This document shows, in pieces, positions 6,288 through 58,287 of a DNA stretch of 64,000 bases. Position 1 is the stretch's first letter; each line of letters opens with the position of its first letter. The notes under the pieces were generated by a model. It made no database searches. It was not told the origin of the DNA and saw only the letters and a program-made list of their open reading frames with translations. This DNA is from a virus. The DNA lies in the IMG/VR virus record IMGVR_UViG_3300035666_000005, positions 1-64,000 of that record; one strand, given 5' to 3'. Both the position numbers and the translations under genes were made by a program.

Positions 6288-6295
6288 ATGTGTAA
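6288..6295 (+). promoter_or_regulatory. ATGTGTAA candidate late-promoter motif
   Basis: Exact octamer ATGTGTAA on the plus strand, ending 3 nt before the ATG at 6299. The same octamer occurs between genes at 9663, 49374, 50325 and 58287, on the coding strand each time. If it is the core promoter, transcription may start inside the first codons, which would favour the second ATG at 6305. Confidence 0.45.
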
Positions 6296-6298
6296 ATA

Positions 6299-6643
6299 AT
6301 GTTAATGAATCCGTCTCTTATTAAAACAGAATATTTAGCAACAGGCCAAACCGCTCCTTTCACTGGTCAATGGGTTAATACCGCCCTCTGTAAAAACGGT
6401 TTTATTGTAGTATATGCTAGCGGTTCGAGCGTTAGCATTGATTTACAAGCTAAGACAGAATTAAATCAAAACCCTATGTTTTTAGAGGGTGGCTCAGCTG
6501 AAGCCGTATCTTTTTATACAGCTACGGGAATAGGTGCTGGTTATGGAGACCCAATCTTTTTTGACTCGCCAATCGCGAAAATTAGATTAGCAGCTACAGC
6601 TGGTAATGCCCCAGTATTTGCTTATATAACTTACCAAAATTAA
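6299..6643 (+). CDS. Putative small virion (decoration-like) protein
   Basis: 114 residues (112 if the ATG at 6305 is used). It is rich in Ala, Gly, Thr and Ser with alternating hydrophobic residues, as in an all-beta protein. A GYGDPIFFDSP block before a beta-rich end recalls small phage decoration or tail-associated proteins. No catalytic residues. It is the only plus-strand gene in this region, has the ATGTGTAA motif directly upstream, and its stop overlaps the convergent 6640-6858 gene by four bases. A late structural role is inferred from context and composition. Confidence 0.6.
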   Translation: MLMNPSLIKTEYLATGQTAPFTGQWVNTALCKNGFIVVYASGSSVSIDLQAKTELNQNPMFLEGGSAEAVSFYTATGIGAGYGDPIFFDSPIAKIRLAATAGNAPVFAYITYQN

Positions 6644-6858
6644 TCATTAAGTTCTTCTTCGCGTTTGGGTCGCGGTTTAAATCCAGTTTTTCTTTTATTT
6701 ATATAGGCCATATTTGGCTCTAATTTATATTCGGGATTATCTGAATGGGATTGAGAATCTTCAACTGTCCACATCCCCATATAAGTCCACTTCATTTTTT
6801 TATCAAGCTTTTTCCAAAGCTCGCTTGTCTTTAACGATTGAAAAGAAGGCCAGTACAT
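6640..6858 (-). CDS. Small hypothetical protein
   Basis: 72 residues with an N-terminal Trp-rich segment (two Trp in WKKLDKKMKW) and a basic tail ending in acidic EEELND. No membrane segment or motif. The ATG is at 6858. It lies 7 nt from the upstream gene on the same strand and overlaps the convergent gene end by four bases. Not recognised. Confidence 0.6.
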   Translation of the reverse strand: MYWPSFQSLKTSELWKKLDKKMKWTYMGMWTVEDSQSHSDNPEYKLEPNMAYINKRKTGFKPRPKREEELND

Positions 6859-6865
6859 ACTCTTA

Positions 6866-7354
6866 TTATGTTAAAAATTTTTTAAAAAGTCCAGTCTTTT
6901 TTTTATTTTCACTTTCAATAAAGATATTAAAATAATCAAAAATACCTTTGTTCCAGATTAGTAAGTATTGAAAAACTTCGATTGCTGGCATCATGCCCAT
7001 ACCCATTATTTCTTCATTAATAATACGCTCATGCTCTTCAAAATTATCCATAAAATCATATAGATAATCAAGAACTTTTTGCTTGTCTTCGAAAACAGCA
7101 GAATCAACCATTACTTCTGAAAACCATTGATTTTCTATTTTTTTCTTTGAGGATTTGAAAACACTAGTAAAAACTATATATTGTTTAGATTCCTGTAAAT
7201 ATACTCCAAAAATAATATAGAATAAATTTTTAGTTTTACGTTTATTAAACTTTTTAGAAACATCTGAAACCAGACGTTTAGGAACCGCACCAAACATTAC
7301 ATCTAAGTTAAGACCATCTAATTGTTCTACATTCAAAAGTTGTTGCAAGTCCAT
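6866..7354 (-). CDS. Hypothetical protein
   Basis: 162 residues with mixed alpha/beta composition, a basic middle (SKKFNKRKTK) and several aromatic clusters. A Met/Gly stretch (MGMGMMP) is at about 120-126. The ATG is at 7354, and the region before it contains TATAAT-like sequence but no good -35 box. It is divergent from the subtilisin gene. No family recognised. Confidence 0.65.
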   Translation of the reverse strand: MDLQQLLNVEQLDGLNLDVMFGAVPKRLVSDVSKKFNKRKTKNLFYIIFGVYLQESKQYIVFTSVFKSSKKKIENQWFSEVMVDSAVFEDKQKVLDYLYDFMDNFEEHERIINEEIMGMGMMPAIEVFQYLLIWNKGIFDYFNIFIESENKKKTGLFKKFLT

Positions 7355-7398
7355 GATTATAAATTATTATAGTAATAATATAATTAAATATATAAAAA

Positions 7399-7405
7399 AG
7401 TGTAA
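7399..7405 (+). promoter_or_regulatory. AGTGTAA variant of the late-promoter motif
   Basis: AGTGTAA followed by TTCATTAT, ending 8 nt before the subtilisin ATG at 7414. It differs from ATGTGTAA by one base in the shared GTGTAA core plus flank, and the same A+T-rich downstream sequence follows. Confidence 0.35.
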
Positions 7406-7413
7406 TTCATTAT

Positions 7414-8322
7414 ATGAAAGAAAACTTACTACTTCCTGGAGATGAAATAAAATATACTGGAGATATCCAAACTTTATCAGATATTATTGATTGGGGTATA
7501 ATAGATTTTGACATACCAAAACTATGGAATAAAAATAAAGGAGAAAATATTTCTGTAATGGTTTGTGATACTGGAATTACAGATCATGAAGATTTAAAAG
7601 AAAATATTGATCATGATAAAGCTGCTAGTTTTATTGATAACGAAGATTATATTGATCATCAAGGACATGGAACTTGCGTTGCCGGTGTAATTGCTGCAAA
7701 AGATTCTGGATTCGGAACGGTTGGTGTCGCCCCACGTTGTAAAATTATACCAGTAAAATCTTTATCAAATAAAGGCTTTGCTACAAATAGAAGTTTAGAA
7801 AAAAGTTTAGAATATGCAATTAATATAAAACCAGATATTGTTAATATGTCTTTAGGTGGGCAATATGCACAAGGTGATATTTTTCACGGATTTTTAAAAG
7901 AATTAGAAGCGTTAAATATTCCTGTTATATGTGCCATGGGGAATTATGGAGAAAATTATTCATGTTTTCCTGCTGATTATCCAGAAACAATCGGGGTGAC
8001 TTCTTATAGAAAAGATCGGAATATATCTAATTTTTCTTCTAGAAGTAATGATGCTGATTTTGCTCTTCCAGGAGAAGATATTTTAACCACAAATTTAAAT
8101 AATCAATATTCTATTGTTAATGGAACAAGTTTTGCCGCACCATTTTTATCTGGACTGGTGGCTATTATTCTATCAGAAGCCAAGAAAAAAAATATAGTAT
8201 ATACAACAAAACAAATAAAAGAACTTTTAATACAAACCTGTAAAGATTATGGGCCAATTGGTAAAGATCGTCTTTTTGGGTATGGTATTATAGATGTGAA
8301 CAATTTAGAAAAATTAATCTAA
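7414..8322 (+). CDS. Subtilisin-like serine protease (S8 family)
   Basis: 302 residues. The catalytic triad is complete: Asp52 in CDTGI, His85 in GHGTCVAGV and Ser239 in NGTSFAAP. The oxyanion Asn177 lies in CAMGN. The order and spacing are those of a normal peptidase S8 domain filling the whole protein. There is no signal peptide and only a short N-terminal extension (about 35 residues), as in intracellular subtilisins. The GTGTAA motif upstream suggests late expression. Possible roles are virion maturation, host proteolysis or lysis. None is shown by sequence. The stop overlaps thyX (convergent) by four bases. Confidence 0.9.
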   Translation: MKENLLLPGDEIKYTGDIQTLSDIIDWGIIDFDIPKLWNKNKGENISVMVCDTGITDHEDLKENIDHDKAASFIDNEDYIDHQGHGTCVAGVIAAKDSGFGTVGVAPRCKIIPVKSLSNKGFATNRSLEKSLEYAINIKPDIVNMSLGGQYAQGDIFHGFLKELEALNIPVICAMGNYGENYSCFPADYPETIGVTSYRKDRNISNFSSRSNDADFALPGEDILTTNLNNQYSIVNGTSFAAPFLSGLVAIILSEAKKKNIVYTTKQIKELLIQTCKDYGPIGKDRLFGYGIIDVNNLEKLI

Positions 8323-8969
8323 TTGCACCAATTTAAAGCTTTGCTGGTATTGGGAAAATAATCTATAAATATTTTTTTAATTTCTAGAGCTATTTCTCTA
8401 TGTTCTTTTTGTGTATCTTCATTCGCCCTTAAATCTATATAATGAATCCAAGAACGGATTGTACCTGACATATAGAGTGTTGTTTGCGTATTTAAAGGCA
8501 ATAACATTCTAGCACATTCTTTTGCAACTCCTTTTGCAATTAATTTATTATAAATATAAACGCACTGATTTTGCGCTTGTTCAATTTCTTCTTTTAGTTC
8601 GAGATAACTTCCAATATCAATTGGTTCGTCTCCGACTTGTCGATTTGTTTTACCCTGCTTTCTAAGCTCGATATATTCTAATTCTGTTGCCGCAGAATAT
8701 CTTTGACTAAATTCCTGAAAAGAAAAACTTCTATGTCGCAAAATTTGGGCGGCAATCGCACGACTTGTCTTAATTTCTACGGTCATAGAAACCATCTCAA
8801 ATGGACTCCAATGCCTATGTTTAATAAGATATTCTAAAAGTTTGGGTGCGGTTTCTGTATTTAGTTGGTTGGTTGGGTTGCTTACTCTCGCACAATAAGA
8901 GATTAATTCTTCGGGATTATTAATACCAGTAACGCATGGGTTTGATAAAGAAATTAACTTAACATTCAT
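8319..8969 (-). CDS. thyX: Flavin-dependent thymidylate synthase
   Basis: 216 residues. The ThyX signature RHRSFSFQEFSQRY is at 78-91, matching RHR-x7-S and the surrounding conserved ExSxRY block. The enzyme methylates dUMP to dTMP with methylene-tetrahydrofolate, FAD and NADPH. With the dCMP deaminase, dNMP kinase and B12-dependent reductase elsewhere in the window it forms a phage dNTP pathway. A TTGAAT-N17-TATCAT promoter lies directly before it, with only six bases between the -10 box and the ATG at 8969, predicting a leaderless message. Confidence 0.95.
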   Translation of the reverse strand: MNVKLISLSNPCVTGINNPEELISYCARVSNPTNQLNTETAPKLLEYLIKHRHWSPFEMVSMTVEIKTSRAIAAQILRHRSFSFQEFSQRYSAATELEYIELRKQGKTNRQVGDEPIDIGSYLELKEEIEQAQNQCVYIYNKLIAKGVAKECARMLLPLNTQTTLYMSGTIRSWIHYIDLRANEDTQKEHREIALEIKKIFIDYFPNTSKALNWCN

Positions 8970-8975
8970 TAAGTA

Positions 8976-9004
8976 ATGATATAATTAATTGAATTAAAAT
9001 TCAA
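8976..9004 (-). promoter_or_regulatory. Sigma70-type promoter of thyX, with palindrome
   Basis: Minus strand: TTGAAT (9004-8999), 17-nt spacer, TATCAT (8981-8976), then 6 nt to the thyX ATG. The -35 part is one arm of a 16-nt inverted repeat TTGAATT-TT-AATTCAA (8989-9004) that overlaps the stop codon of the upstream gene and could be an operator. Identical -35 and -10 hexamers and spacing precede the dNMP kinase gene. Confidence 0.65.
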
Positions 9005-9660
9005 GACTTATCTTTATTAGGTTCAAATTGGTAAAAATACAATTCTTCATCGCCAGCAAACCAGCGACTACCAGTTTGTTCACAAGAGAATTCTTTACTA
9101 AATACTTTCCATTTTTCGTGACCTTTTAATTCTTTACCAATAAAAGCGCCCCCATCACGCCAAACAATACGATTTCCGGGCTGGAAAAAATATTGACCAC
9201 CCTTGCCAATTAAAAGATGCCCCTGTTTATGACCTCCAGGATTTTCACTTTGCCCAGTTTGGTGTTGTGGTCCATAAGCCCAATCAAATGTCATTAAATA
9301 CGTAGCATCATGCCATTCCCGATTTTTCAATACAATTTTACAAGCACTATGTTTTAAATATTCGTACCTATTCACTGTAACATATGGAGAGTAACAATCC
9401 CAAAGTTCTAACCAGTCTAATGGAAAGTTCGTTAAGCCTTCTTCCGGAAGAAGATCTGTTAAATAATGGATAGGAACACGAGCATGTACGCTACCCATTT
9501 CAGTCATTACGGAAAAAAGGGCGCAACGCCGATTTAAAGAGGTAAACCCAAACACTTCTACCGGAATAAACTCATTTGTACTCCTAGGTTCTTTATCATG
9601 TAAAAAACTTGTATCTAAATAAGCAGAAAAAAGTGGTATATCTGTATTAATATATGCCAT
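9001..9660 (-). CDS. Conserved-looking hypothetical protein
   Basis: 219 residues, rich in Trp, Tyr, Phe and His, with several GG/HH-type motifs in the middle (GPQHQTGQSENPGGHKQGH). No membrane segment. The composition is that of a compact globular protein. The ATG is at 9660, divergent from the small membrane protein gene at 9695. The stop lies in the palindrome of the thyX promoter. I do not recognise the family. Confidence 0.65.
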   Translation of the reverse strand: MAYINTDIPLFSAYLDTSFLHDKEPRSTNEFIPVEVFGFTSLNRRCALFSVMTEMGSVHARVPIHYLTDLLPEEGLTNFPLDWLELWDCYSPYVTVNRYEYLKHSACKIVLKNREWHDATYLMTFDWAYGPQHQTGQSENPGGHKQGHLLIGKGGQYFFQPGNRIVWRDGGAFIGKELKGHEKWKVFSKEFSCEQTGSRWFAGDEELYFYQFEPNKDKS

Positions 9661-9662
9661 TT

Positions 9663-9670
9663 ATGTGTAA
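9663..9670 (+). promoter_or_regulatory. ATGTGTAA candidate late-promoter motif
   Basis: Exact ATGTGTAA followed by TATATAATAT, 24 nt upstream of the ATG at 9695. It heads the two-gene unit of small membrane proteins. Confidence 0.45.
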
Positions 9671-13773: not shown

Positions 13774-13792
13774 CACCTATAAATAGGTGTAA
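13774..13792 (+). promoter_or_regulatory. Palindrome overlapping a GTGTAA motif
   Basis: CACCTAT-AA-ATAGGTG (13774-13789) is a perfect 7-bp inverted repeat with a 2-nt centre. Its right arm runs into GGTGTAA (13786-13792), the variant late motif, 9 nt before the ATG at 13802. It could be an operator that controls the tail-tube genes or the divergent gene at 13740. It also contains TATAAATA, the T4 late-promoter sequence, perhaps by chance. Confidence 0.4.
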
Positions 13793-13801: not shown

Positions 13802-14596
13802 ATGTACGGTAGAAATATATATGCAGACCAAAGATTAATTATTAATCAACAAATATTATCAGGGGTCACAGATTTTAATGCTAATTTTGATATTCCATAT
13901 GAAAATATAGATTTACTTGGCGGAAGATTTGCGGCTGCAATACAAGGAGAATTATCTAAAAATATATCTTTTAGTAGATTTCTAATACAATCAGATCCTT
14001 TAAAATATTTAACTGGAAACGCTTCTTGTAATGGTTTTGTAGATTATAAAAATTATTCGTTTGGTTTCGAAAGTGGTTATTTAACAAATTATAATGCAAG
14101 CTGTTCAGTTAATGATATTGTTATAGTAAATACAGATTTTATTGTTTTTGGAAATATTGGGGGTGATATTAAAGATCCAATATTACCATCCCAAAATACA
14201 GATAATATCTATGTTGCTAATTATGGAAATATTTTTGTATCTGCTACTCAAGGCCAAACTAATCGTATAATATCTTTTGAATATAACGTAGCATGTGAAA
14301 GAATACCAATTTTTGGATTAGGATCGATCAACCCAATTGGTGTTTTTTTAAAAAAACCTTTAACTATTGAATTGACTTTAAATATAGAAATAGATGATTA
14401 CGAATCTCCGAATATTCAAAATCTATTATGTACTCCAGAAATACAAAATATAACAATAGATTTAAAAAATTGTAATAATTCTATAATTATAGAGAGTTTC
14501 TATGTTCCAAATGCAAGATTAATATCTAATTCTTATGCTGCTAGTATAGATAATGCAGCAAATGTTGAGTTAGTTTTTCGTAGTTTTTTAATGTAA
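13802..14596 (+). CDS. Tail-tube-like structural protein, copy 1
   Basis: 264 residues with high beta content and many Asn, Ile and Ser. The pattern is AAIQGELSKNISFSRFLIQ, a loop with DPL, then SFGFESGYLTNYNASCSV and VYG/FGNIGGDI-type strands. This recalls phage tail-tube or major tail-like proteins. It is followed after eight bases by a paralogue of the same fold (14605-15369), aligned at the FDIPYENIDLLGG / FRVPMEPIRSLGA and LTGN/IESIIN segments. No signal peptide or catalytic residue. The late-type motif and divergent palindrome lie upstream. Confidence 0.55.
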   Translation: MYGRNIYADQRLIINQQILSGVTDFNANFDIPYENIDLLGGRFAAAIQGELSKNISFSRFLIQSDPLKYLTGNASCNGFVDYKNYSFGFESGYLTNYNASCSVNDIVIVNTDFIVFGNIGGDIKDPILPSQNTDNIYVANYGNIFVSATQGQTNRIISFEYNVACERIPIFGLGSINPIGVFLKKPLTIELTLNIEIDDYESPNIQNLLCTPEIQNITIDLKNCNNSIIIESFYVPNARLISNSYAASIDNAANVELVFRSFLM

Positions 14597-15369: not shown

Positions 15370-17904
15370 TTATTTCAAATCTCTCATATTTTTATATATT
15401 TTACAATCCTGTTTGACGATCTCATCAGCAAAAATCGCGTCAGTTCCTTTTAATCTACCCTTAACAATAACAATATCTCCTTCTTCTGGAAATTGACCGC
15501 CATTTTTAGCTTTGCAATCTTCAAAAAGATTAAAACGGCCATCAAACATTAATACGGAAACTTTCCCAGTATCATCAGAAACTGTAGCTTTAAAAAATTT
15601 ATTGCCGTTCCTTGACTTAGACTGTCTTGGCGTTTCAGTAATTTCACCAATAATTAAGACTCTATCATTATCCTCTTTTGTTTCAAAAGCATCTTTAATA
15701 GTAATAAAGTTATGATTGCCTTGTTTAAATATACTAGTTAAATTCTCACTATAACTAAAACCTAAACAATTTTTCTCATAAAAATAATTTGTAAGGGCTA
15801 CATTACGACTATTCAATTCATAAATTTGACGATAAGGTGCATATTTTTTCTTAAATGTTTCAAAACGAGATTCTTTAATTTGTTTTTTATCAACAAGTAA
15901 TTGGATGATCATAAGAATATTTTTATTTTCACCTTCGTCATGCAATGTCTTAACAAGGCGTTTTTCTTTATCCGTTAAAATATTAAAAGCTTGCGCTTGC
16001 AATACCAAATGCGGTCTTGACGAGCCAAGATCATCCAATGCCCCAGCTTGAATCAGTGCAGAAAGAATACCAATATTCAATCCGGCTTGTTTGGCAGCTA
16101 AGAAGCAATCAATCTTATTATCATATTCACCACGAAATTTGATAAGTTTTTCAATAGAGCTATCAGAAACGCCTTTAATTGCACTTAATCCATATCTAAT
16201 ATTTTGGCCTTCGACTGTAAATCCTATATCTGACTTTAGTAAGCTCGGCGGAAGCAATTTTATATTAAAATAAGGCAGTTCTCTTTCGATCTGTCTGATC
16301 TCGTCCATAGGATCGGGCAGCTTTTGAATTGCATTAAGACATGCTGTAAAAAACTCTAGAGGATATTTATATTTAAGATAAACAGTCAATGCCCCAAGAT
16401 AAGCTACACAATATGAGTGAGATTTATTAAATGAATAATCGGCAGAATCTAACATGACTTTCCAAATAGCTTCTGCCACCTGTTCTCCAAAGCCATTTGT
16501 TTCACAAATTTCGAATACTTTGTCTTTCCATTTTGGCATTTCATCACGTTTCTTTTTGCCAATAATACGACGAATATATTCAGACTCATCAGCAGTAAAA
16601 CCAACTGTAACAAGAGCTTGAATTAATTGTTCTTGATAAAGTGGTAGATTACGTGTTTCTGCAAAGACTGGGGCTAATTTTTCGTGAGGAGCTTCCCCAC
16701 TAAAATTAATATAATCTTTTTCGTAAGCCAAAGCTCCAGGTCGAGCGATAGCATTTACGTCACTCAAATGTGCAATATTCGCTGGACGAATATTTTTACA
16801 AACACGATAAGCACAATCCGCACTAATTTGATATAATCCGTAAGGGAGTAGATCTTCACGTTGAAGATGGGTATAAACTTCCGGATTATCATCGAGATTA
16901 ATATCTTCAAATTTTTCTGGGATTAATTCAAATACATTTTTAATAATCTCATTACTGATAAGACCAAGAAGATCAAGTTTAATACCAAACTTCGCCGCAG
17001 TATTCATTTCATAAGAAATAGTAAGTTCTCCTTCTTTATTCATTTCTACTGGAGCAAACTTATCAAGAGGATGGTACGAAATGAAATATCCACTAGCATG
17101 AGTTGATTTACCACGAATTAATCCGCGCAATTTTAAAGCAACTTGGTAAGTTTCTGGATAACGATCAGCCCAATCACGGAATTTTTCACTATTTTTGTAT
17201 GAATCTTCAATATCTTCAACAACTCCGAAATGCTTGCCAATAGTATCTGCCAAATGACTAGCATCTTCTTCCGAAGCCTCATTCATGATTTTAAAAGTAT
17301 CTTTAACAAGAATCTTGCCAGAAAAAGTTGAAACAGAGGAAATTTTGCAAACTTTATTCGGGTAACATTTTTTAAGCCACTCGATAATTTCGTCACGAAC
17401 TCCGCCCAAGTTGATATCAACATCTGGAGCAAGATCCCCTTGAATATAAGTAATTCCGTCGATTACTTCTTTTTTAGCGCGAGTCTTTGAAATAAAACGG
17501 GTAAAGAAAAGATTCTTGTCAATTGGGTCTACCCCTGTAACTCCTATTAAATAAAAGATAAGACTTCCCGCTGCAGACCCGCGACCCCAGTCAATAAAAG
17601 CCCCTAGTTGACGAGCCTTATTAATAACACGCCACACGAGAAGAAAGTAATCAATAAATCCAAGATCTTTGACAATCTCAAACTCTTCCTTAATTCTATC
17701 AAGGTAAACTTTCTTTTTATGTTCTGGAATTTTATCACGAAACTTCTTCCACCCTTCGTTTACCAACTGTTGTAGAAATTGTTCGTTTGTCTCGGCTTTT
17801 TCGGCTAATAAGCCTTTCTCTTCTTTTGTAAAAGAAATATTTGGCAACCTTACAAGGTTGACATTTTTCATTTCAATATTTTTAAATTGTTCTAAAAATT
17901 TCAT
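15370..17904 (-). CDS. dnaE: DNA polymerase III alpha subunit, polymerase part
   Basis: 844 residues covering the palm, thumb, fingers and C-terminal OB region of a C-family polymerase but lacking the PHP domain. GRGSAAGSL is at 108-115. The catalytic PDVDIN (Asp161, Asp163) and IKLDLLGL (third Asp, near 315) are present. FNKSHSYCVAY lies near 485. The OB-fold (LIIGEITETPRQSKSRNG and following) is near 740-800. The missing N-terminus is encoded by the separate 18523-19275 gene, with a proofreading exonuclease gene between them. The ATG at 17904 overlaps the exonuclease stop. It replicates the phage genome with the DnaB helicase and primase nearby. Confidence 0.92.
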   Translation of the reverse strand: MKFLEQFKNIEMKNVNLVRLPNISFTKEEKGLLAEKAETNEQFLQQLVNEGWKKFRDKIPEHKKKVYLDRIKEEFEIVKDLGFIDYFLLVWRVINKARQLGAFIDWGRGSAAGSLIFYLIGVTGVDPIDKNLFFTRFISKTRAKKEVIDGITYIQGDLAPDVDINLGGVRDEIIEWLKKCYPNKVCKISSVSTFSGKILVKDTFKIMNEASEEDASHLADTIGKHFGVVEDIEDSYKNSEKFRDWADRYPETYQVALKLRGLIRGKSTHASGYFISYHPLDKFAPVEMNKEGELTISYEMNTAAKFGIKLDLLGLISNEIIKNVFELIPEKFEDINLDDNPEVYTHLQREDLLPYGLYQISADCAYRVCKNIRPANIAHLSDVNAIARPGALAYEKDYINFSGEAPHEKLAPVFAETRNLPLYQEQLIQALVTVGFTADESEYIRRIIGKKKRDEMPKWKDKVFEICETNGFGEQVAEAIWKVMLDSADYSFNKSHSYCVAYLGALTVYLKYKYPLEFFTACLNAIQKLPDPMDEIRQIERELPYFNIKLLPPSLLKSDIGFTVEGQNIRYGLSAIKGVSDSSIEKLIKFRGEYDNKIDCFLAAKQAGLNIGILSALIQAGALDDLGSSRPHLVLQAQAFNILTDKEKRLVKTLHDEGENKNILMIIQLLVDKKQIKESRFETFKKKYAPYRQIYELNSRNVALTNYFYEKNCLGFSYSENLTSIFKQGNHNFITIKDAFETKEDNDRVLIIGEITETPRQSKSRNGNKFFKATVSDDTGKVSVLMFDGRFNLFEDCKAKNGGQFPEEGDIVIVKGRLKGTDAIFADEIVKQDCKIYKNMRDLK

Positions 17905-18533
17905 ATTTCAATTGTTAAAATTTGTTTCTTAAAAATCTCAAGGCATTTCTCATTATCATAAACAGCATCATGAGCTTTTAAATCGTTGTATTCAATATCA
18001 TAGAGACCACAAAGATGTTTAACTGAAGTCTTAACTCCCTTTTTAACATAATGATACATTTGATATTGCCAAGCCGTTCTATTTTCTGGAACAGACTTTA
18101 GCCCCATATATATACCTTTTTGAATACATTGTATATCTAAAACACGATCAAGATATGAGAAGTCTGATTTAAGACCTAAAATTCTACGCAATGTATTAAT
18201 AACATAAATATCGAATCCAAAAAGATTTGCGCCAACTATCAAATATTCTGGATTATAAAGATAGCTTTCAAAAAGTTGGAGAACTTCTTTTGGGTCTTCA
18301 GATTTTTCTTTCCAATTATTATAATCGAATCTTGTAATTCTAGCCGCATCAGCAGAAACATTTAAGTCTTTCCAATAAAGCATATGATCTTCGTTTTTAA
18401 CAATTTTGTGATCATCATAAACTAGCCAAGAAAGTTGCCAAGGCCTAGTTAAAGCTAGCGCTAAAGATTCGGTCTCCGTATCAAAAACAATATATTTTTG
18501 CTTTTTATTAAAACGTAGAAGATTACTCTGCAT
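17901..18533 (-). CDS. DnaQ-like 3'-5' exonuclease (proofreading)
   Basis: 210 residues of a DEDDh exonuclease. Exo I is FDTETE (Asp18, Glu20), Exo II is in GANLFGFDIYV (Asp108) and Exo III is HDAVYD (His188, Asp193). It has the size of an epsilon-type domain without extra parts. It lies between the two halves of the alpha subunit, overlapping both by 4 and 11 bases, so it is almost certainly the proofreading subunit of this polymerase. Confidence 0.9.
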   Translation of the reverse strand: MQSNLLRFNKKQKYIVFDTETESLALALTRPWQLSWLVYDDHKIVKNEDHMLYWKDLNVSADAARITRFDYNNWKEKSEDPKEVLQLFESYLYNPEYLIVGANLFGFDIYVINTLRRILGLKSDFSYLDRVLDIQCIQKGIYMGLKSVPENRTAWQYQMYHYVKKGVKTSVKHLCGLYDIEYNDLKAHDAVYDNEKCLEIFKKQILTIEI

Positions 18534-19275
18534 TTTCTTTCAATGCCTCCATACAAAATTCTTGACTTCCAAAATGACGCAACTCTGGTTTTTGAAATGT
18601 CGTTCGATTTAAAATACAACGATAAGTCATGTAGGATTTAAAATCTTTTCTCTCACGATAATAAATTGTTTTAGACGAAACGACCTCATGATCTTTAATT
18701 GTTTCTTTAATATGACTACTTAAAAGATCGTCAAATGGCAAACCATTATTCTCAATAAAATAAACAGGATCCGTGAAATCTAATTCTGGAACGCATTGAC
18801 GACCATATAAAAGATTATAATAGATATATGAATCATAAAACGGCACCGCAAGCAAAAGATTTTTACTCCAATTTTCTTTCAAAGTTTTGAAATCAAGACG
18901 AGGTTTCCCGTTATAAATTCCTTTTGTAGTGGAAATATTATGCAATTTAATTAAATCTGTAAACGAATTTTTAAGAGCAAAAATAATAAATTTGCTTTCT
19001 GTAAGTTCAGACTCTGGAGTTTTATTTTCGATATCTTGGCAAACATTTACTCGATACCCAAAACGCAGATTTAAACCTGCTTTTTTTGAATTTTCATAAG
19101 CTTCTACCATTCCAGTTAGAGTATTATCAACAATAAAAACATCTTCAATACCATAGTCTTTACAAATATCAAATACAGAGTCGGGCTGGTTTAAAGCACG
19201 ATTCTCTATAGGAGAATATGGCTCTAGAGTAAGAACCGAACTCAACGAGTAGTTTGATCTAAAGATTGGTAGCAT
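18523..19275 (-). CDS. DNA polymerase III alpha, N-terminal PHP-like domain (separate gene)
   Basis: 250 residues from the ATG at 19275. An in-frame TTG six codons earlier lies just after the -10 box and is unlikely. The start LPIFRSNYSLSSVLTLE corresponds to the HxHSxYSLLD start of DnaE, and VDNTLTGMVEAYENSKKAGL with RFGYRVNV to the following PHP strands. The first metal-binding His residues are replaced (RSNYS), so the PHP site looks inactive. A protein of only this part implies that alpha is assembled from two polypeptides. Own promoter at 19284-19312. Confidence 0.75.
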   Translation of the reverse strand: MLPIFRSNYSLSSVLTLEPYSPIENRALNQPDSVFDICKDYGIEDVFIVDNTLTGMVEAYENSKKAGLNLRFGYRVNVCQDIENKTPESELTESKFIIFALKNSFTDLIKLHNISTTKGIYNGKPRLDFKTLKENWSKNLLLAVPFYDSYIYYNLLYGRQCVPELDFTDPVYFIENNGLPFDDLLSSHIKETIKDHEVVSSKTIYYRERKDFKSYMTYRCILNRTTFQKPELRHFGSQEFCMEALKENAE

Positions 19276-19283
19276 TGAACCTA

Positions 19284-19312
19284 ATATTAACAATACTTTT
19301 TTTAAAAGTCAA
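19284..19312 (-). promoter_or_regulatory. Sigma70-type promoter of the polymerase genes
   Basis: Minus strand TTGACT (19312-19307), 17-nt spacer, TAATAT (19289-19284), 8 nt before the ATG at 19275. It lies partly in the last codons of the upstream nuclease gene. It would let polymerase genes be transcribed apart from the helicase-primase genes. Confidence 0.5.
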
Positions 19313-20297
19313 AGTCATTATTTGATTGAGTTTGTTTCCAAGCTGGACACCCTTCATATTTTCTTATTTCAATCCGATATTCGGGTTTTAAATCTTTTTC
19401 TTTGAACTCTTCATTTGCAAAAATTGATTTAATAGTTTTACCGTCTTTATCTATAAGAACTTTATAATCAATAGGATCTAAATATGGACAGCGCCATCCA
19501 GATTTTGTTTTACACATCCATTTGCGACTAAATTCGCTAGAGGCAAAATTGGAACAAGCCTTTTTTTCATCGAAGTTTTTTAGATATTCGCTAATATATT
19601 CAAGGTAATGCTCGAAACCAATTAATTCTTCTTCATTAAAATGTGGACATTCTCTTTCTGGATCGTCTGGATATCTTAAAAATAAGAATCTAACTAAAAT
19701 ATCTTTTTGTTTTTTATACTTTTTACGGAGGGCTAATGAATACATCATCCCTTGTAAATTACTTTCTAACTCATCACCTCTAAAAGCTTTTTTACTAGAT
19801 TTAAAATCTCTAATAATCATTTGCTTTTTATCTTTAAAAATTCGATCAACAAATCCACCAATTCTATACTTAGGCTCATCACTAGTAATATCAAACTCCC
19901 ATTCCGAACCAATAAGTTTATAATCTCCAATAAAATCAAATTTTAAACCAACTAAAATCATCTCATCTATACATTTAAGATTAGTTATTTCCTGTCCGCT
20001 CTTTTTAAGAGGTGCGACCATTTCATCTAAATCCAATCCTTCGCGCTTGGCAGCCTTTATAATTAATTTAAAAACTGCAGGAGACTTTAGACACGTTTTG
20101 TTTTTTACAATTTTTTTAACGTAATGCTCGTGCCGAGGATTAGCTAAGACTTCAAAAATTAAATGGGCTACAGTACCTCGCATCGCCCCTGAATTATTCT
20201 TTTGTGGCAATTTAAGATTATAATTGCAATAATACATCCAAGAACATGATTGTAATGTCTTGATTCTACTGGCTGAAAGTTTTATTAGTTCATTCAT
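19302..20297 (-). CDS. PD-(D/E)XK nuclease, Cas4/RecB-type
   Basis: 331 residues from the ATG at 20297 (ATGA overlap with the deaminase). A TTG start further upstream is rejected. The order of motifs is that of RecB-like nucleases: SASRIKTLQSCSWMYYC at the start, GTVAHLIFE (motif I Glu/His region), then GGFVDRIF with IIRDFKSSK (catalytic Asp and Lys), and LQGMMYSLAL (the QxxxY motif). Several Cys (two near the start, more at CPHF, CKTK and RCPY) suggest an iron-sulphur cluster as in Cas4/AddB. It is probably a recombination or DNA-processing exonuclease in the replication module. Confidence 0.8.
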   Translation of the reverse strand: MNELIKLSASRIKTLQSCSWMYYCNYNLKLPQKNNSGAMRGTVAHLIFEVLANPRHEHYVKKIVKNKTCLKSPAVFKLIIKAAKREGLDLDEMVAPLKKSGQEITNLKCIDEMILVGLKFDFIGDYKLIGSEWEFDITSDEPKYRIGGFVDRIFKDKKQMIIRDFKSSKKAFRGDELESNLQGMMYSLALRKKYKKQKDILVRFLFLRYPDDPERECPHFNEEELIGFEHYLEYISEYLKNFDEKKACSNFASSEFSRKWMCKTKSGWRCPYLDPIDYKVLIDKDGKTIKSIFANEEFKEKDLKPEYRIEIRKYEGCPAWKQTQSNNDFDF

Positions 20298-30420: not shown

Positions 30421-31385
30421 ACTAAATTATCTATAAAATTTTTTAATTTTTCAAATTCGATTTCATTATTAATAGATTCTCTTATAGTTTTTGCGCACTG
30501 TTCTTGTATAGAATGTCTAAAGTCTTTATTATTAATAAAATTAAGCGCTTTCATTTTAAATTCTTCTGGCGTTTCAAAAAAGAAAGCGGTTTTATTTTCA
30601 ATACACCATTGCTGTAAGCTTTTATTCTGAGAATATGGTCGTGCTAAAAATACTGGTCTTCCAGTAGCTAAGCTTTCTATGATAGAGTAACCATAACCTT
30701 CCAATCTTTTAATATGAACTGTAGCAATACTATCTCTTAAATTTTTTAACATATCTTCTCTTGAGCATCGATCACAAGGTTTAAAATCAATTTCTTGTAT
30801 ACTATTCATTAATTTAAAACAAAAATCATGGTCGTGTGGGAATGCTTCCTTATATTTGTTAATATAAGAACCAAATATATTACCGTCACTAATTCCTTGA
30901 TACTTAAAAAAATCATAGTTTACTTCTGGTTTATAATATAAATAATTTAAATTATATTTTAATGATAAAAGAAATCCAGTATAATCTGCACAAAGATAAT
31001 TTCTAATTATAGAAAAATTATAAGCACCATCCCAATAATCATTTCCACTATATGCAACAAATTTACTGTAGTTTTTAAGGTGAGGGTATAATTCATTTAA
31101 AATTTCAGGCTGTGAATCAACACATGTTAAAAACATGATTTCTGGTTTAATATCAAGTATTTCTTCTTTAGATAAAACAAGAACGTTCGAGCCAATTTCT
31201 TTATTTGCTTTTTCTTGGGTCCAATAAGTATTCCATGCCCACATATTTTCTTTATTTTGCCAAGAAACATGATGAGTTGGTTTATATTTATCAGAAGGTA
31301 TAATTAAAGTATGCCCCATCTTCTTAAAGGAAGATGCGATACTTTGTGTTAAATATATATGAATATCTGGCCAAAAAATATGCAT
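30417..31385 (-). CDS. GT4-like glycosyltransferase
   Basis: 322 residues. HIKRLEGYGYSIIESLATGRPVFL near 225-250 is the E-x7-E type nucleotide-sugar motif of GT-B family 4 enzymes. HIFWPDIHIYLTQSIASSF at the start is the N-terminal Rossmann half. No membrane segments. It is the last gene of the sugar series on this strand before the recombinase gene, to which it is three bases distant. Confidence 0.7.
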   Translation of the reverse strand: MHIFWPDIHIYLTQSIASSFKKMGHTLIIPSDKYKPTHHVSWQNKENMWAWNTYWTQEKANKEIGSNVLVLSKEEILDIKPEIMFLTCVDSQPEILNELYPHLKNYSKFVAYSGNDYWDGAYNFSIIRNYLCADYTGFLLSLKYNLNYLYYKPEVNYDFFKYQGISDGNIFGSYINKYKEAFPHDHDFCFKLMNSIQEIDFKPCDRCSREDMLKNLRDSIATVHIKRLEGYGYSIIESLATGRPVFLARPYSQNKSLQQWCIENKTAFFFETPEEFKMKALNFINNKDFRHSIQEQCAKTIRESINNEIEFEKLKNFIDNLV

Positions 31386-33003: not shown

Positions 33004-34062
33004 TTATATTACACTAATATTAATTAAATTTAAATCATTTTTTACCATTAATTCAACTAAGTTTTCAAAATTAATTTCAGCATTCCAATTTAGTTCTTCT
33101 TTGGCTTTTTTAGGATTTCCTAACAATAGATCTACCTCTGCCGGTCTATAAAAATTAGGATTAATTTTAACTAAAACTTGTTGTTTATCAGAAAATAGTT
33201 GTTCATTTATTTCTGAATGATCCTTAGATGAATAGCCCCAATAACTTTTAATTCCAGCAAAATAAAAAGCTTTTTCTATAAATTCTTTTACGGTATATGT
33301 TTTTCCAGAGGCTAATAAATATTCTTTTGGATAGGATTGATTTAACATTAGCCAAACTCCTTTAACAAAATCTTTTGCATGACTCCAATCTCGTTTAGCA
33401 TAAATGTTCCCAAGCTCTAAAGGTTTAAAATCTATATTATCTTCTATAGCTTTTTTTATACGAGCAACTTCTTTTGTAATTTTACGAGTAACAAATTCTT
33501 CACCTCTTCTTTCGCTTTCATGGTTATACAATAAGCCTTGAATAGCGTAAAGGTTATAACTTTCTCTATAAACTTTTACAATATGTCTTGCCGCAGCTTT
33601 TGCTGCTCCATAGGGACTTCTTGGCTTTAATGGGTGGTTTTCATCTTGCGGACTATAGTCTACATTACCAAGTTCTTCTGAAGATCCCGCATTATAAAAT
33701 CTACATTGTGGAGCATGTTTTCGAATTGCTTCTAAACATCTAATAACTCCAATTGCATCAATATCAAAAGTTTGCTCTGGGATTTGCCAAGAAGCTCCAA
33801 CAAAACTTTGGGCTGCTAAATTAATAAAATAATCTGGCTTAATTTGTATTACAATATTGTCTATTGATTGCGAATCTGTTAAATCTCCAATTACTAATTT
33901 AAATCTATTATTATTTAATAAATGTTTTATATTATGATAGTTATTTGTAGAAGTTCTTCTAACCATACCATATATTTCATAATCTGTATTTTCTAAAAGA
34001 TAATCAGCCATGTAACTCCCATCTTGCCCAGTTACACCAGTAATAATTACTTTTTTAAGCAT
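33004..34062 (-). CDS. gmd: GDP-mannose 4,6-dehydratase
   Basis: 352 residues from the ATG at 34062. The run of four ATGs from 34083 comes from acidic codons of the upstream gene read in another frame. The NAD(P) motif ITGVTGQDGSYM is at the start. SAAQS-type AAQSFVGASW, NAGSSEELG and SPYGAAKAA (the YxxxK active site) are present. The length and blocks match Gmd. It makes GDP-4-keto-6-deoxymannose, a precursor for fucose, rhamnose or perosamine-type sugars used in surface glycans. Confidence 0.93.
   Translation of the reverse strand: MLKKVIITGVTGQDGSYMADYLLENTDYEIYGMVRRTSTNNYHNIKHLLNNNRFKLVIGDLTDSQSIDNIVIQIKPDYFINLAAQSFVGASWQIPEQTFDIDAIGVIRCLEAIRKHAPQCRFYNAGSSEELGNVDYSPQDENHPLKPRSPYGAAKAAARHIVKVYRESYNLYAIQGLLYNHESERRGEEFVTRKITKEVARIKKAIEDNIDFKPLELGNIYAKRDWSHAKDFVKGVWLMLNQSYPKEYLLASGKTYTVKEFIEKAFYFAGIKSYWGYSSKDHSEINEQLFSDKQQVLVKINPNFYRPAEVDLLLGNPKKAKEELNWNAEINFENLVELMVKNDLNLINISVI
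33009..33015 (-). promoter_or_regulatory. AGTGTAA variant of the late-promoter motif
   Basis: On the minus strand AGTGTAA is followed by TATAAAATAT and lies 10 nt before the ATG at 32998. It sits in the last codons of gmd. Compare 7399 and 13786. Confidence 0.3.
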
Positions 34063-38453: not shown

Positions 38454-39050
38454 TTATATATTAGAATTAATTGTTTTGTTTGTCAATTTTTTTTTAGCAA
38501 GTTTAATAAATTTATTATGCCAATTTAAAACAGTTTGTGGGGTTACTTTTAATATTTCAGCAATTTCTGAATAATTTAATATACGATCATTATTATAAAA
38601 ATAACGATAATATATTGCATTTTTTGTATTTGGATCGGTAATTTTATCAAATAACTCAATAATAGTATTTATAATTTCTTTTTGATTTTTATTGTTATCT
38701 TTTTTATTAAATTCATTTATATAAAATTCTAAAGAAACATCTTCGGTTGGAATTAATTTCTGATTTTTATTTTTGTAATTTAAACAAAAAAATCGAACTT
38801 GATTACCAAGCCAAGTAGAAAATTTACTACCTTTTCTTTTATCAAAAGAATTTACCGCGTTAAATACTATCCAATATCTATTGTCATTTAGTTCTTCTAA
38901 AGTTAGATTACAATTAGCACAATATTTTTTTCCAATATTAAATATCATTCCGCTATGTCTAAAAACTAATTCTTCTAAACTTTTGCTACATTTTAAATTT
39001 TTTATATTTCTAATTAATGTAGCATCTTTTAATTTTTCACAATTTAACAT
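38454..39050 (-). CDS. Phage RNA polymerase sigma factor (sigma70-family)
   Basis: 198 residues. Region 2 is visible as LEELVFRHSGMIFNIGKKYC and SFDKRKGSKFSTWLGNQVRFFCL (core-binding and -10-melting helices). Region 4 is LNYSEIAEILKVTPQTVLNWHNKFIKLAKKKL, a helix-turn-helix for -35 contacts. It lacks regions 1 and 3, like ECF or phage sigma factors. It has a perfect early-type promoter (TTGACA-N17-TATTAT) with 7 nt to the ATG. It is the obvious candidate to read the ATGTGTAA late motif. Confidence 0.8.
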   Translation of the reverse strand: MLNCEKLKDATLIRNIKNLKCSKSLEELVFRHSGMIFNIGKKYCANCNLTLEELNDNRYWIVFNAVNSFDKRKGSKFSTWLGNQVRFFCLNYKNKNQKLIPTEDVSLEFYINEFNKKDNNKNQKEIINTIIELFDKITDPNTKNAIYYRYFYNNDRILNYSEIAEILKVTPQTVLNWHNKFIKLAKKKLTNKTINSNI

Positions 39051-39057
39051 TGAATTA

Positions 39058-39086
39058 ATAATAAGTTATTTTGAATAACATGTCAA
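39058..39086 (-). promoter_or_regulatory. Sigma70 promoter of the sigma-factor gene
   Basis: Minus strand TTGACA (39086-39081), 17-nt spacer, TATTAT (39063-39058), then 7 nt to the ATG at 39050. It predicts a leaderless early transcript for the phage sigma factor and its downstream genes. Confidence 0.8.
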
Positions 39087-39125
39087 TTTCTTTAGATATA
39101 TTAAATATTATAAATATAATTTTGT

Positions 39126-39160
39126 GAGCAAAGCGAACAAATCGAAGACGAGCAAAGCGA
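39126..39160 (+). repeat. Two copies of GAGCAAAGCGA, period 24
   Basis: GAGCAAAGCGA occurs at 39126-39136 and 39150-39160 in the 156-nt divergent gap between the sigma-factor and 39207 genes. The bases between and after also partly repeat (ATCGAA and TTCGAA). It is clearly more G+C-rich than its surroundings. It could bind a regulator, form RNA structure or be a foreign repeat. No other copy was seen in this window. Confidence 0.6.
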
Positions 39161-39206
39161 GGATTCGAAATAGAAATGTTCCTTTATCATATCTTTTTTG
39201 ATACTT

Positions 39207-49366: not shown

Positions 49367-49374
49367 TTACACAT
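49367..49374 (-). promoter_or_regulatory. ATGTGTAA candidate late-promoter motif
   Basis: On the minus strand ATGTGTAA is followed by TTATTATAGG, in the 45-nt gap between the poly-Ser gene stop (49380) and the ATG at 49334. Confidence 0.5.
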
Positions 49375-50317: not shown

Positions 50318-50325
50318 TTACACAT
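50318..50325 (-). promoter_or_regulatory. ATGTGTAA candidate late-promoter motif
   Basis: On the minus strand ATGTGTAA is followed by AAATTAAGATT, 11 nt before the ATG at 50306. It overlaps the last codons of the 50318-51547 gene. Confidence 0.5.
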
Positions 50326-53942: not shown

Positions 53943-53946
53943 AATA

Positions 53947-56900
53947 TTATTTTATACTAATATCTTCCCATCCAGCTGAAGAAGTTGCAGTTAAACGCCA
54001 AGTTTCACCAAAATCTTCTGATAATAATACAGATAAACCATTTCTACCGACAGCTATATATTTACCGTCAGAACTAATTGCCACAGTACCATATCTTTCT
54101 AAATCAAAAGTTGGTTGTAATTTTTGAGTCCATGTTTGACCATAATCACTAGAAATATATATACCTCGATCTGAATTTTGATATACGGCTGCCGCTTGAT
54201 ATCTACCATCTCCTCCTACGCTAACATCATACCACGTACGAACAGAGTCTTTATTAAACCATGTAACACCAAAATTATTCGATACTAATAATTGGCTATT
54301 TATACCCGCTACTGTTTGATATTGACCATTATCACTCATCGAAACACGAAACCAAGAACCGGCGCCAATTACTTCAGTCCATGTTTGGCCATAATCATTT
54401 GAAACATATATGCCTTTACAATTATTGCAAGGTCCGCCAGTAAAGGATACAACCGTAATATAACGACCATTATTACTTATAGCCACATCTGTCCAATTAC
54501 CTGCTAATTTAGACACCCATGTTTGGCCAAAATCGGTTGATACAATAAGCTCGGGATTAGGATCTACGAAAGAACTTCCAAAAATGGGGTCCTCCCGACT
54601 ACTAAGTAAAGCTGCTTGATATTTACCATTAGCACTAATAGCAATAGACTGACAACCACGATTTTGACCATTAAAAGAGACCGGAGACCAAGCTACTCCA
54701 GAATTATTTGATATAAATATTTTATTAGGGTAATCTGCAACTACTTGATATCTACCTTTGCTACTAATATCAATACCCCTTAATCCAGAATAAGGATAAT
54801 TATTTGTTCTATCTACCCATGTAGTTCCATAATCATAAGAAGTATAAATAAGATTAGAAGATATTGCAGACATAAATTGACCATCAGAAGGGCAAAAATC
54901 ATCCCAATAAATTTGTAAATATTCCTCAACAAGAGTTTTTGAGTAATACGTATTAGAAATTTCAAAAGCGGCGTTATAATCCCAAGAATTTGAATCACTA
55001 CCATTTAATTGGAATTTTAGTGCCGCAGCATTCGCTCGTAATTGAAATTCCATTTCTGAAGTTCCTCCGATTGGGAATGCTAGAGGGTCTGGGCCATTAA
55101 CAAAATTATTTCTTGCAAGAATATATTTCATTGCGTACGCCATTCCCGCCCCCTGTTTAGATGTTTGCGGGACGAAAGTAGTCATTAATAACTGAATTGG
55201 TTCGGCACCACATAAAGTTGTGGTAAACATGTAACGATAAGTTGGAAGGGTCGGCGCTGGTAAAAGATTAGCATTAGCATCGAGCCCCATCATCCATAAA
55301 ATAAATTGATTATTCGGTAAACTTCTTACCCCAGGATGTCTAGTTTCAAAAATCGGCAGATCTATAATTTCTTGTAGCCCAGAAATTAAACCGTAAGATG
55401 CACCCCATGGAGCGTTATTCACCCCACAAAAAGTTCCTGGCAATGGCAGTATTTCAGTATTAGAACGAAGCTTGTTTAAGAAAGAATTGACAAAAAATGA
55501 GCTTGGCGTTATTGAAAGTCTCGCGTAGGTTTGTAATGCAATCCCCGCAGTTGATTGATAGTCACCAAGATAAGAAAATCTTCCAGAGACTGCATTTCCA
55601 GGGCTTGGGTTTGAATACCCCATGATATTCATTACCATATCTGCCCGATTACTTATTGGCGCAAGCGTTTGACCAGGAGATGTACTGGCACCGAGTATTG
55701 CCGACCACGTAATAAACTCTTCATTTGTCGGTTGTCGATAAAGTAACAGCGAGAACATGTCTGCAATAAATTGTGCGTTATCACATCTTCTTAAAGAAGA
55801 ACTACTTGAAGAAGTGAAAGACGAAGAAGACGAAGAACTAAATATCGTAGATGAAGAGGATGAAGAGGATGAAGATAATATTAAATCTATATCACATATA
55901 TAAAATTCTGAAGATGTATTAAAACCATCACTAGTAAATATAGATTGAGTATCTAATGAAATAATATTTCCAGAACTTTCAATTGAGGATAATTTTCGAG
56001 GCCAATGAGAAAAACATCCAGACCAACAATCTTGAACATCGGTTCCTCTAAAATTATAAAAATTTGGAGGTTCTATTGTAAATCCTATTATGGTAGTATC
56101 ACATGGATATAATATATTACATTCTATGTCTATATCTGTTATTGAAGGCGGAATACCAGAATCAAAAACTCTAAACGTATTTAAAGATAGAAAATTTTCT
56201 TCCCATCCGCCGCCATTATACTGCGCAAAAGCAGAAATACCATTTAAATTCCCTTTTTGTTCATAACCTGATGGTAATTCAAAACCAATACCTTCAAAAA
56301 GATTATAAAATTTTCCACTTCCGGAAGAAGTTTGTCCAAGTCTCGAAATTCTAGTACGCCCACCAGTAGGATGTCCAGGATATAATTGATAACTACCACT
56401 AGCTATTTGAAAAAAACTATTTTCAAAAAATTTCTCTTCTCCAGATAATGGTTGGATAACAAATCCAGAATATTGGAAAAAATAAATGTCGTCGTTACTA
56501 AAACATAAATTTTTACCAACAAACTCTGGGATATCTGTTATTGGTAATTGGCCAGGAATTACAGGATTACAAAAATCTAAACCAGTTACTAAAGAAACTT
56601 TTCCACTAAAATTTCCACTTGTTATTTCATAAATAGGTTCTCCCTTAATTGGGTCAAAACCTTTGCCACTAACATCCCAATTAAGAAAAGATTCTCCAGT
56701 AATTATTCCGACATGAGATTTAGAGATATTCCAAATACCAGGTTCAAAATTAAATTGATAATCTCCAATTAATTTGCCACTAATTCTGGACCCAGTTGCA
56801 AAAGCAGCTCCTGTAATATTAAAAAATCCACTAATCTTACCCGTTACAAAAATTAATGGAGATATTAAATTAATATTTTCATAATCAGAAGGATCAAACT

Positions 56901-58269
56901 CAACAAATATATCTCCCGTATTTATGAAAAATTTCGAAACCAAGCCGGTTTTTAAACCAGTTTTGTATTCATATACAAAAGAATATTGAGAACATATTGA
57001 ATTACTTGGATTCGCATTACAAATTGTATTGTAATTTTCTTCGCTAATCGGTGGTGGAACAAAATTACCATTTGTATCTAAATACCACCCCCTTCTTTCA
57101 TCTGGTACTATACCAGTAACGATTCCAGAAAAAAATCCTGTTAAAAATCCACCGTTAAAATTTAAAAATCCTGTATATAAAATATCAGGTTGAAAACCTT
57201 TTGCACCTATATTTGTTAATGTAAAAATATTGCCTAAACCAGAACCTAATACAGTATAATTTTTTTCAATATATTGGTCCTCAGCAACTTTAAACTCTCT
57301 TACAATACCAGATCCCGTTCCATATTCATAATAATTTCTTAAAAGGTTAAAACCACTTACGAAACCTGACACATTACTAGATAAAAATCCACTTCCCGTA
57401 ATAAATCCAGAAACATTTTGATTAGTAACAAAAGCTGTCCTTTGAACATTCCTATAATAATCCCCAGTTAAGCCACTAATATATTTTAATTGTATTGATA
57501 AATTAGCAGAATCAGCATTTCTAAAAACTATATTATAATCTTTATAATAATTATTTTCTACATACAAAATATTCGGACCAAATGACAAATAATAAGTTTC
57601 ATCTTCAAGTCGTATTCCAGATAAAGTGACACGTAATTCTTGAGTACCAAAATCTGTATCTAAAATAATATTTGTATTAGATAAACTAATTATATTATTT
57701 CTATTTATTAAATAAAAATATCCTGAATTATTTTGCTCTATACTTAAATTATTGAGCCCAGTTACAGTAAAATTATTATTAGTTACTATACCAGAAAAAA
57801 TTGTAAAATTATAATCACTATTATTAATAATATTGATTTTTATTAATTCACCAGATCGATAAGAAACCTTTTCGTCATAGAAATATTCTGGGGTATCACC
57901 TAAAATACTTAAATTTAAAAAATTAACGTTTTGGCTGCCAATTGAATTTAAACTAAAACCAGTAATTTTATCATAATTTTGAATTGGAAGTCCAAGATAT
58001 AAAGGGTTAGCATTATTATATAAATCAATTCTATTATTAGAAATATTCCCAGATAAATTTAAATTTGAGTTAGTTTCATAACTTCCGATAAAATCGCCAC
58101 TAGGAGAATAAATTTTTCTATTTTCAATCGAAAAAATATTAAAAATATTGCCGCTATTCGAATGAAAATTAAAATTAAAAATACCCGTAGATACAGGTCT
58201 TAAATTGAATAACCAATTAACCGTATCTTGTGGGTATATATACCGAAACCTTGTACCAGATATTAACAT
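53947..58269 (-). CDS. Large adsorption protein with DUF4214 and seven Asp-box repeats
   Basis: 1440 residues. About 1-795 is Gly/Asn/Ser-rich and fibre-like, with TG-rich strands. A Ser-rich linker lies at about 797-826. A DUF4214 region follows at about 828-1110 (FIADMFSLLLYRQPTNEEF). From about 1125 to the end there are seven Asp-box motifs (SYDYGTTW, SNNSGVAW, STDFGQTW, SNDYGQTW, SNNFGVTW, SSDYGQTW, SEDFGETW), each inside a repeated blade that ends with NGRYQ or GKYQ. Seven Asp boxes fit a sialidase/sortilin-type propeller. It is probably the receptor-binding protein. ATGTGTAA lies 10 nt upstream. Confidence 0.82.
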   Translation of the reverse strand: MLISGTRFRYIYPQDTVNWLFNLRPVSTGIFNFNFHSNSGNIFNIFSIENRKIYSPSGDFIGSYETNSNLNLSGNISNNRIDLYNNANPLYLGLPIQNYDKITGFSLNSIGSQNVNFLNLSILGDTPEYFYDEKVSYRSGELIKINIINNSDYNFTIFSGIVTNNNFTVTGLNNLSIEQNNSGYFYLINRNNIISLSNTNIILDTDFGTQELRVTLSGIRLEDETYYLSFGPNILYVENNYYKDYNIVFRNADSANLSIQLKYISGLTGDYYRNVQRTAFVTNQNVSGFITGSGFLSSNVSGFVSGFNLLRNYYEYGTGSGIVREFKVAEDQYIEKNYTVLGSGLGNIFTLTNIGAKGFQPDILYTGFLNFNGGFLTGFFSGIVTGIVPDERRGWYLDTNGNFVPPPISEENYNTICNANPSNSICSQYSFVYEYKTGLKTGLVSKFFINTGDIFVEFDPSDYENINLISPLIFVTGKISGFFNITGAAFATGSRISGKLIGDYQFNFEPGIWNISKSHVGIITGESFLNWDVSGKGFDPIKGEPIYEITSGNFSGKVSLVTGLDFCNPVIPGQLPITDIPEFVGKNLCFSNDDIYFFQYSGFVIQPLSGEEKFFENSFFQIASGSYQLYPGHPTGGRTRISRLGQTSSGSGKFYNLFEGIGFELPSGYEQKGNLNGISAFAQYNGGGWEENFLSLNTFRVFDSGIPPSITDIDIECNILYPCDTTIIGFTIEPPNFYNFRGTDVQDCWSGCFSHWPRKLSSIESSGNIISLDTQSIFTSDGFNTSSEFYICDIDLILSSSSSSSSSTIFSSSSSSSFTSSSSSSLRRCDNAQFIADMFSLLLYRQPTNEEFITWSAILGASTSPGQTLAPISNRADMVMNIMGYSNPSPGNAVSGRFSYLGDYQSTAGIALQTYARLSITPSSFFVNSFLNKLRSNTEILPLPGTFCGVNNAPWGASYGLISGLQEIIDLPIFETRHPGVRSLPNNQFILWMMGLDANANLLPAPTLPTYRYMFTTTLCGAEPIQLLMTTFVPQTSKQGAGMAYAMKYILARNNFVNGPDPLAFPIGGTSEMEFQLRANAAALKFQLNGSDSNSWDYNAAFEISNTYYSKTLVEEYLQIYWDDFCPSDGQFMSAISSNLIYTSYDYGTTWVDRTNNYPYSGLRGIDISSKGRYQVVADYPNKIFISNNSGVAWSPVSFNGQNRGCQSIAISANGKYQAALLSSREDPIFGSSFVDPNPELIVSTDFGQTWVSKLAGNWTDVAISNNGRYITVVSFTGGPCNNCKGIYVSNDYGQTWTEVIGAGSWFRVSMSDNGQYQTVAGINSQLLVSNNFGVTWFNKDSVRTWYDVSVGGDGRYQAAAVYQNSDRGIYISSDYGQTWTQKLQPTFDLERYGTVAISSDGKYIAVGRNGLSVLLSEDFGETWRLTATSSAGWEDISIK
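55619..55680. repeat. 62-nt block identical to 52252-52313
   Basis: The second copy of the conserved DUF4214 segment, in the 1440-aa protein. The encoded LGASTSPGQTLAPISNRADMVMNIMGY region is the most constant part of the pair, with divergence only after it. Confidence 0.85.
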
Positions 58270-58279
58270 CTTCTAATTA

Positions 58280-58287
58280 TTACACAT
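58280..58287 (-). promoter_or_regulatory. ATGTGTAA candidate late-promoter motif
   Basis: On the minus strand ATGTGTAA is followed by TAATTAGAAG, 10 nt before the ATG at 58269. It lies in the 33-nt gap after the 930-aa gene. Confidence 0.5.

Follow-up and report, generated by a model that had tools for sequence, protein, structure and literature searches.

The stretch of DNA analysed here (the window) comprises bases 1–64,000 of a 120,876-bp IMG/VR virus record, labelled G000, in which genes were predicted with a simple codon-usage caller and all start codons are computed. Within the window, the hexamer GTGTAA precedes genes on both strands. On the plus strand the core is located at 6290–6295, 9 nt before the ATG (6305) of a 112-aa gene (6305–6643); at 7400–7405, 8 nt before the ATG (7414) of a subtilase (7414–8322), with equal spacing in the related records G008 and G010; at 9665–9670, 24 nt before the ATG (9695) of another 112-aa gene; and at 13787–13792, 9 nt before an ATG at 13802. 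On the minus strand it is found at 49367–49372, 32 nt before the ATG (49334) of a 1123-aa protein; at 50318–50323, 11 nt before the ATG (50306) of a 308-aa protein, overlapping the end of the preceding gene; and at 58280–58285, 10 nt before the ATG (58269) of a 1440-aa protein. A weaker case is the minus-strand core at 33009–33014, 10 nt before the ATG (32998) of a 65-aa Cys-rich protein; this core overlaps the preceding gene's end, and no ortholog confirmation was found in the relatives compared. The initial annotation had described five copies of the octamer ATGTGTAA and three variants, all of which were present at the places and on the strands claimed, at 3–32 nt from the next start. The 3 nt given for the copy at 6288 stemmed from a start called too early (6299), the distance to the ATG at 6305 being 9 nt. 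Orthologs of this gene share an ATG-AATCC at the 6305 start, and GTGTAA lies 8–10 nt before the ATG in 8 of the 8 members shown, though the flanks differ. The 9665 site is retained in G008, G010 and G016 and absent in G011 and G012, while the 13787 site is retained in G001, with TGTAA variants near the same place in other homologs. The window also carries three tandem tRNA genes (Leu, Ala and Val; 5225–5542, minus strand) and a DNA polymerase III alpha gene (15370–19293) that apparently lacks the PHP part; this part is encoded separately close by, and an exonuclease-like gene lies between the two.

Relatives were retrieved through searches of IMG/VR with the terminase and with a putative sigma factor encoded in the window (sigma 1), which returned hundreds of matches, including more than 300 terminase relatives. 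No close cultured relative was present in the phage collection searched. The comparison set consisted of 18 relatives, whole or in large fragments (many of the compared records are possibly fragments), giving 19 family records with G000 included. Judging by the comparison with G000 66–81 kb and 81–109 kb, these relatives seem to have swapped their modules for tail, packaging and replication independently. A search for the host, in which genome contigs were queried with sigma 1, returned distant sigmas only (21–30% identity), and a GDP-mannose dehydratase considered as a host indicator was discarded as too widespread. The end of the G000 record (116886–120876) has a GC content of 43–48%, against 32% overall, and zero called genes, and may reflect a chimeric assembly.

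To measure enrichment, intergenic copies of each hexamer in the 60 nt 5’ of a start on the same strand were counted and ranked among all 4096 hexamers, with the late region of T4 passed through the same pipeline as a control. In G000, 16 of 47 GTGTAA copies met this definition where about 0.5 were expected (p ~1e-20), making it the first-ranked hexamer before genes, and a first-order model of the upstream regions predicted 1.1 sequences with GTGTAA where 16 were found. The octamer by itself was ordinary in number, with six copies of ATGTGTAA in the window against 3.2 expected (six or more in 11 of 100 shuffles), and the additional copy, at 19510–19517 on the minus strand, lies within a gene. 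The octamer was rejected as the promoter unit, its first two bases being dispensable, and the signal is better described as the shorter core followed by two A/T positions (GTGTAAWW). The variants AGTGTAA and GGTGTAA, although correctly located, merely have different bases preceding the same core. The A/T-rich sequence noted downstream of the motif is real, A/T being preferred at both positions that follow the core (p = 7e-10 and 3e-6). Likewise, positional and k-mer tests bore out the absence of a clear –35 box; nothing stronger than weak G/C preferences was observed at –35 to –30 of the GTGTAA sites. The T4 control yielded TTATAA, TATAAA and TAAATA together with Shine–Dalgarno (SD) words, and GTGTAA was not found before its genes.

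The same hexamer was recovered from the relatives. GTGTAA ranked first in 11 of the 18 (G001, G004, G008, G009, G010, G011, G012, G016, G028, G029 and G030), and thus in 12 of the 19 family records, and was enriched in six more. It was the second-ranked hexamer in G002 and G006; enrichment was modest, with A/T-rich words ranking above it, in G003 (8/39) and in G025, G026 and G027, where it occurs on only three to four sites. No copy was present in G005, a 24-kb fragment. The motif is identical across phages of 31–44% GC, which possibly infect different hosts, and it ranks first in G028 although the sigma 1 of this record is just 30% identical. Conservation in the distant records is partly borne by a shared tail module. 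Per-column conservation of the motif in ortholog alignments is circular, given that the sites were chosen for the motif, and was excluded as evidence. In G000 and its relatives alike, the motif is decisively commoner before starts than expected.

The genes that follow the motif belong predominantly to one class. In the ten closest records, where homology to G000 placed each downstream gene in a module and the weak 33009 site was left out, 94 GTGTAA sites were located before 363 virion genes (tail, capsid/packaging and variable virion) and none before 235 replication/early-module genes, a tally in which the late class is inferred from gene type and the events are not independent because the gene sets are orthologous. 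In G000 alone, the motif precedes 12 of 47 virion genes versus 1 of 29 replication/early genes (p = 0.013). Within a mixed block at 5.8–15.4 kb, it stands before four of the five plus-strand genes and none of the nine minus-strand genes. For 17 of 237 sites, versus 5 of 2000 random places, a terminator-like hairpin with a T-run was present in the 70 nt upstream.

The distance between the motif and the start codon was examined across these 237 sites, which represent 75 families of downstream genes. Two families have a spacing below 8 nt, 21 have exactly 8 nt and 47 fall at 8–12 nt, with a tail to 57 nt. Long spacings are retained in orthologs, as for the terminase, where 19 nt was observed in 10 of 10. 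The host-type promoters of the same phages (TTGAC-N17–19-TAnnnT) show a similarly one-sided distribution with a floor of 6 nt instead of 8 nt: 4 lie below 6 nt, 40 at 6 nt and 18 at 7 nt. For a sigma-70 –10 element, position +1 is 7 nt after its last base. A 6-nt gap after the host-type –10 therefore implies that the A of the AUG is the first transcribed base. With the same geometry, GTGTAA would end at –9, the A/T pair would occupy –8 and –7, and the AUG of the commonest class would be at +1. Because long-leader sites prefer the A/T pair as well (p = 0.003 and 0.002), it appears to be part of the promoter rather than a feature of the start codon. SD-like sites were detected for 5–15% of genes, versus 50% in the T4 control. 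The two spacing floors, 8 nt for GTGTAA and 6 nt for host-type promoters, a regularity absent from the initial annotation, fit a putative –10-only late promoter whose mRNAs would be mostly leaderless, with a predicted start at the AUG or no more than about 5 nt from it. Tail and virion genes predicted to have leadered late mRNAs carry AGG-rich leaders in common before the ATG, for example AGGTAAAAGG or AGGAAAAAGG, seen in G000 at 77376, 75231 and 64605 and also in G033, G011 and other relatives.

Sigma 1 is encoded on the minus strand at 38454–39050 and heads the replication block. It comprises a sigma region 2 and a C-terminal helix-turn-helix (HTH) of the region-4 type. Region 2 was matched in 11 of 12 members (24.2 bits with neighbours in frame, cut-off 24), whereas region 4 gave a weak match in 3 of 12 (16.9 bits, under the cut-off) with HTH-like helices conserved. 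The fold model was of moderate confidence (pTM 0.49), and Foldseek superpositions had low TM-scores. A homolog is present in all 19 family records. A host-type promoter (TTGACA-N17-TATTAT; 39058–39086, minus strand) is positioned 7 nt before the ATG of sigma 1, and the close relatives displayed have similar TTGAC-type layouts ahead of the gene. G/C-richer TTCG/GCTC repeats (CTTCGATTTGTTCGCTTTGCTCACAAA) at 39051–39198 precede this early promoter and are conserved in close relatives. Being first in the replication block and behind a host-type promoter, sigma 1 is consistent with an early gene whose product turns on late promoters. Its C-terminal HTH should read a –35, yet the preferences at –35 to –30 are weak.

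The initial annotation had proposed sigma 1 as the natural reader of the motif; it remains the best first candidate, now joined by a second sigma-like protein (sigma 2), encoded outside the window on the minus strand at 100912–101622 of the G000 record. Sigma 2 combines a Sigma70 region 2 with a Cys-rich, possibly zinc-binding insert. Located in the packaging module, it is far better conserved than sigma 1 (76–99% identity) and has at least 536 relatives in IMG/VR, against zero matches among the phages of the collection searched. In the closest relatives, the sigma 2 operon itself opens with GTGTAA at a spacing of 18–19 nt. Sigma 2 was not found in more distant records that still bear the motif. 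Conversely, the partial contig G033 has a strong motif signal (11/30, p = 1e-14) with sigma 2 present and sigma 1 undetected, and the same combination, a GTGTAA signal and sigma 2 but an undetected sigma 1, recurs in the partial contigs G034, G035 and G036. The strength of the motif in such contigs raises the possibility of a reader besides sigma 1. A phage multisubunit RNA polymerase was set aside as the reader because a search for its beta subunit gave no match. An ORF of G003 (30601–31377), examined as sigma-4-like, was rejected, as it contains HTH repeats and an endonuclease-like C-terminus and has no homolog in the other records.

The original proposal of a phage-specific late promoter is supported by the preference for late genes, the placement by strand, the missing –35 and the persistence of the motif in divergent relatives. 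On sequence grounds, GTGTAAWW very probably serves as a –10-only late promoter at which a phage sigma acts together with the host core enzyme, giving mostly leaderless mRNAs. Host RNA polymerase core with a phage sigma would melt the DNA at GTGTAAWW (about –14 to –7), and RNA synthesis would begin 9 nt past the hexamer. For the majority of late units the AUG would be at the start or within 4 bases of it, making the mRNA leaderless or nearly so, while a minority, including large tail genes, would have longer leaders. Sigma 1, at the head of the early block, would be transcribed through host sigma-70 and would then activate the GTGTAA promoters of virion genes, including that of the sigma 2 operon; sigma 2 may sustain or take over late transcription. 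A phage sigma very probably reads the motif, sigma 1 most likely acting first, and sigma 2 may have a share. An extended scheme is tentative and rather unlikely: a two-sigma relay, across a widespread group of uncultivated phages, in which an early and a late sigma of different families and modules both read a GTGTAAWW kept across module swaps, with the start codons of most early and late genes coinciding with the start of transcription and expression largely leaderless.

That GTGTAA is a late promoter with sigma 2, and not sigma 1, as its reader is possible, although the less probable assignment. The high conservation of sigma 2, its place in the packaging module and its more than 500 IMG/VR relatives argue for it, as does the pairing of sigma 2 with the GTGTAA signal in G033–G036; these contigs, however, may be fragments, which alone could explain the missing sigma 1. 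Distant motif-bearing records do without sigma 2, and because GTGTAA heads its own operon another factor must start it. An alternative host sigma, or host sigma-70 with a phage activator, is an improbable reader. An activator contact could account for the weak preferences at –35 to –30; the early genes of the same phages nevertheless use canonical TTGAC/TAnnnT promoters, the same motif recurs from 31 to 44% GC in possibly different hosts, and phage sigma genes are present in all.

It is very doubtful that GTGTAA is a translation-initiation signal substituting for the SD sequence rather than a promoter. The preferred distance of 8–12 nt is like that of SD sites, few true examples of which occur here, but the spacing has a one-sided floor and a tail to 57 nt, with long spacings kept in orthologs, and host-type promoters follow the same rule with a different sequence. 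The motif is also missing before the 235 early-module genes, which likewise need translation, and at times stands directly 3’ of terminators. TTACAC is not known to occur in the 3’ tail of 16S rRNA, which counts against such a signal. A composition artefact of AT-rich intergenic DNA is refuted by the positional tests and can be given almost no weight: although the octamer count in the window is not significant, the core contains two G, is the top hexamer in most family records, is strand- and spacing-specific and is missing upstream of genes in the T4 control.

The preferred reading, a –10-only late promoter served by a phage sigma, would allow promoters to be mapped from sequence alone across a large group of phages with no close cultured relative in the collection searched. 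The predicted leaderless late mRNAs, if true, would be informative about translation in the host, and the same motif accompanied by different phage sigmas offers a test case for promoter specificity surviving module exchange. Titles and abstracts of the literature searched gave no relevant link between GTGTAA, promoters and phage.

Among known systems, T4 late promoters are 8-nt –10-only elements (TATAAATA) served by gp55, gp33 and gp45 with the host core. Placement before virion genes and the proposed use of a phage sigma with the host core are similar here, but the element differs from GTGTAAWW and T4 spacing to the AUG is 14–73 nt, with SD sites. The TATAAATA element did not emerge when tested for in G000 and its relatives, and a gp55 profile matched neither sigma 1 nor sigma 2. 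Phage AR9 also has a phage-specific late motif near the start site (AACA-(6N)-TA/G, with leaders of 26–491 nt), but it is read by a phage multisubunit RNA polymerase (PMC5312081), for which no beta match was found here. In Salmonella phage 7-11, the region-4-containing sigma gp47 drives late genes (PMC8948821); a phage sigma for late genes is the shared feature, but the promoter there is bipartite (GTAAtg-(16)-aCTA), while no –35 element is seen here, and a gp47 profile did not match sigma 1. Both T4 gp55 and phage 7-11 gp47 differ from the present case more than phiEco32 gp36 does. This gp36 is described as a phage sigma of about 200 aa acting with the host core, host sigma-70 serving the early genes, at middle/late promoters with a single element (tAATGTAtA), no –35 and a start 6–8 bp downstream (PMC8948821, PMC4331800). 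The single element before late genes, the lack of a –35 and the phage sigma with host core (here proposed) are held in common. The elements share a similar GT[AG]TA, but with G here where phiEco32 has A; gp36 is described as lacking region 4 (PMC8948821), whereas sigma 1 has a weak region-4-like HTH; gp36 has no significant similarity to sigma 1 or sigma 2 by sequence or profile; leaderless spacing is unreported in the parts of these sources consulted (PMC8948821, PMC4331800); and the genomes are unrelated. The gp36 promoters of phiEco32 are the closest described system, one that would work alike with a different consensus and proteins of no detectable similarity.
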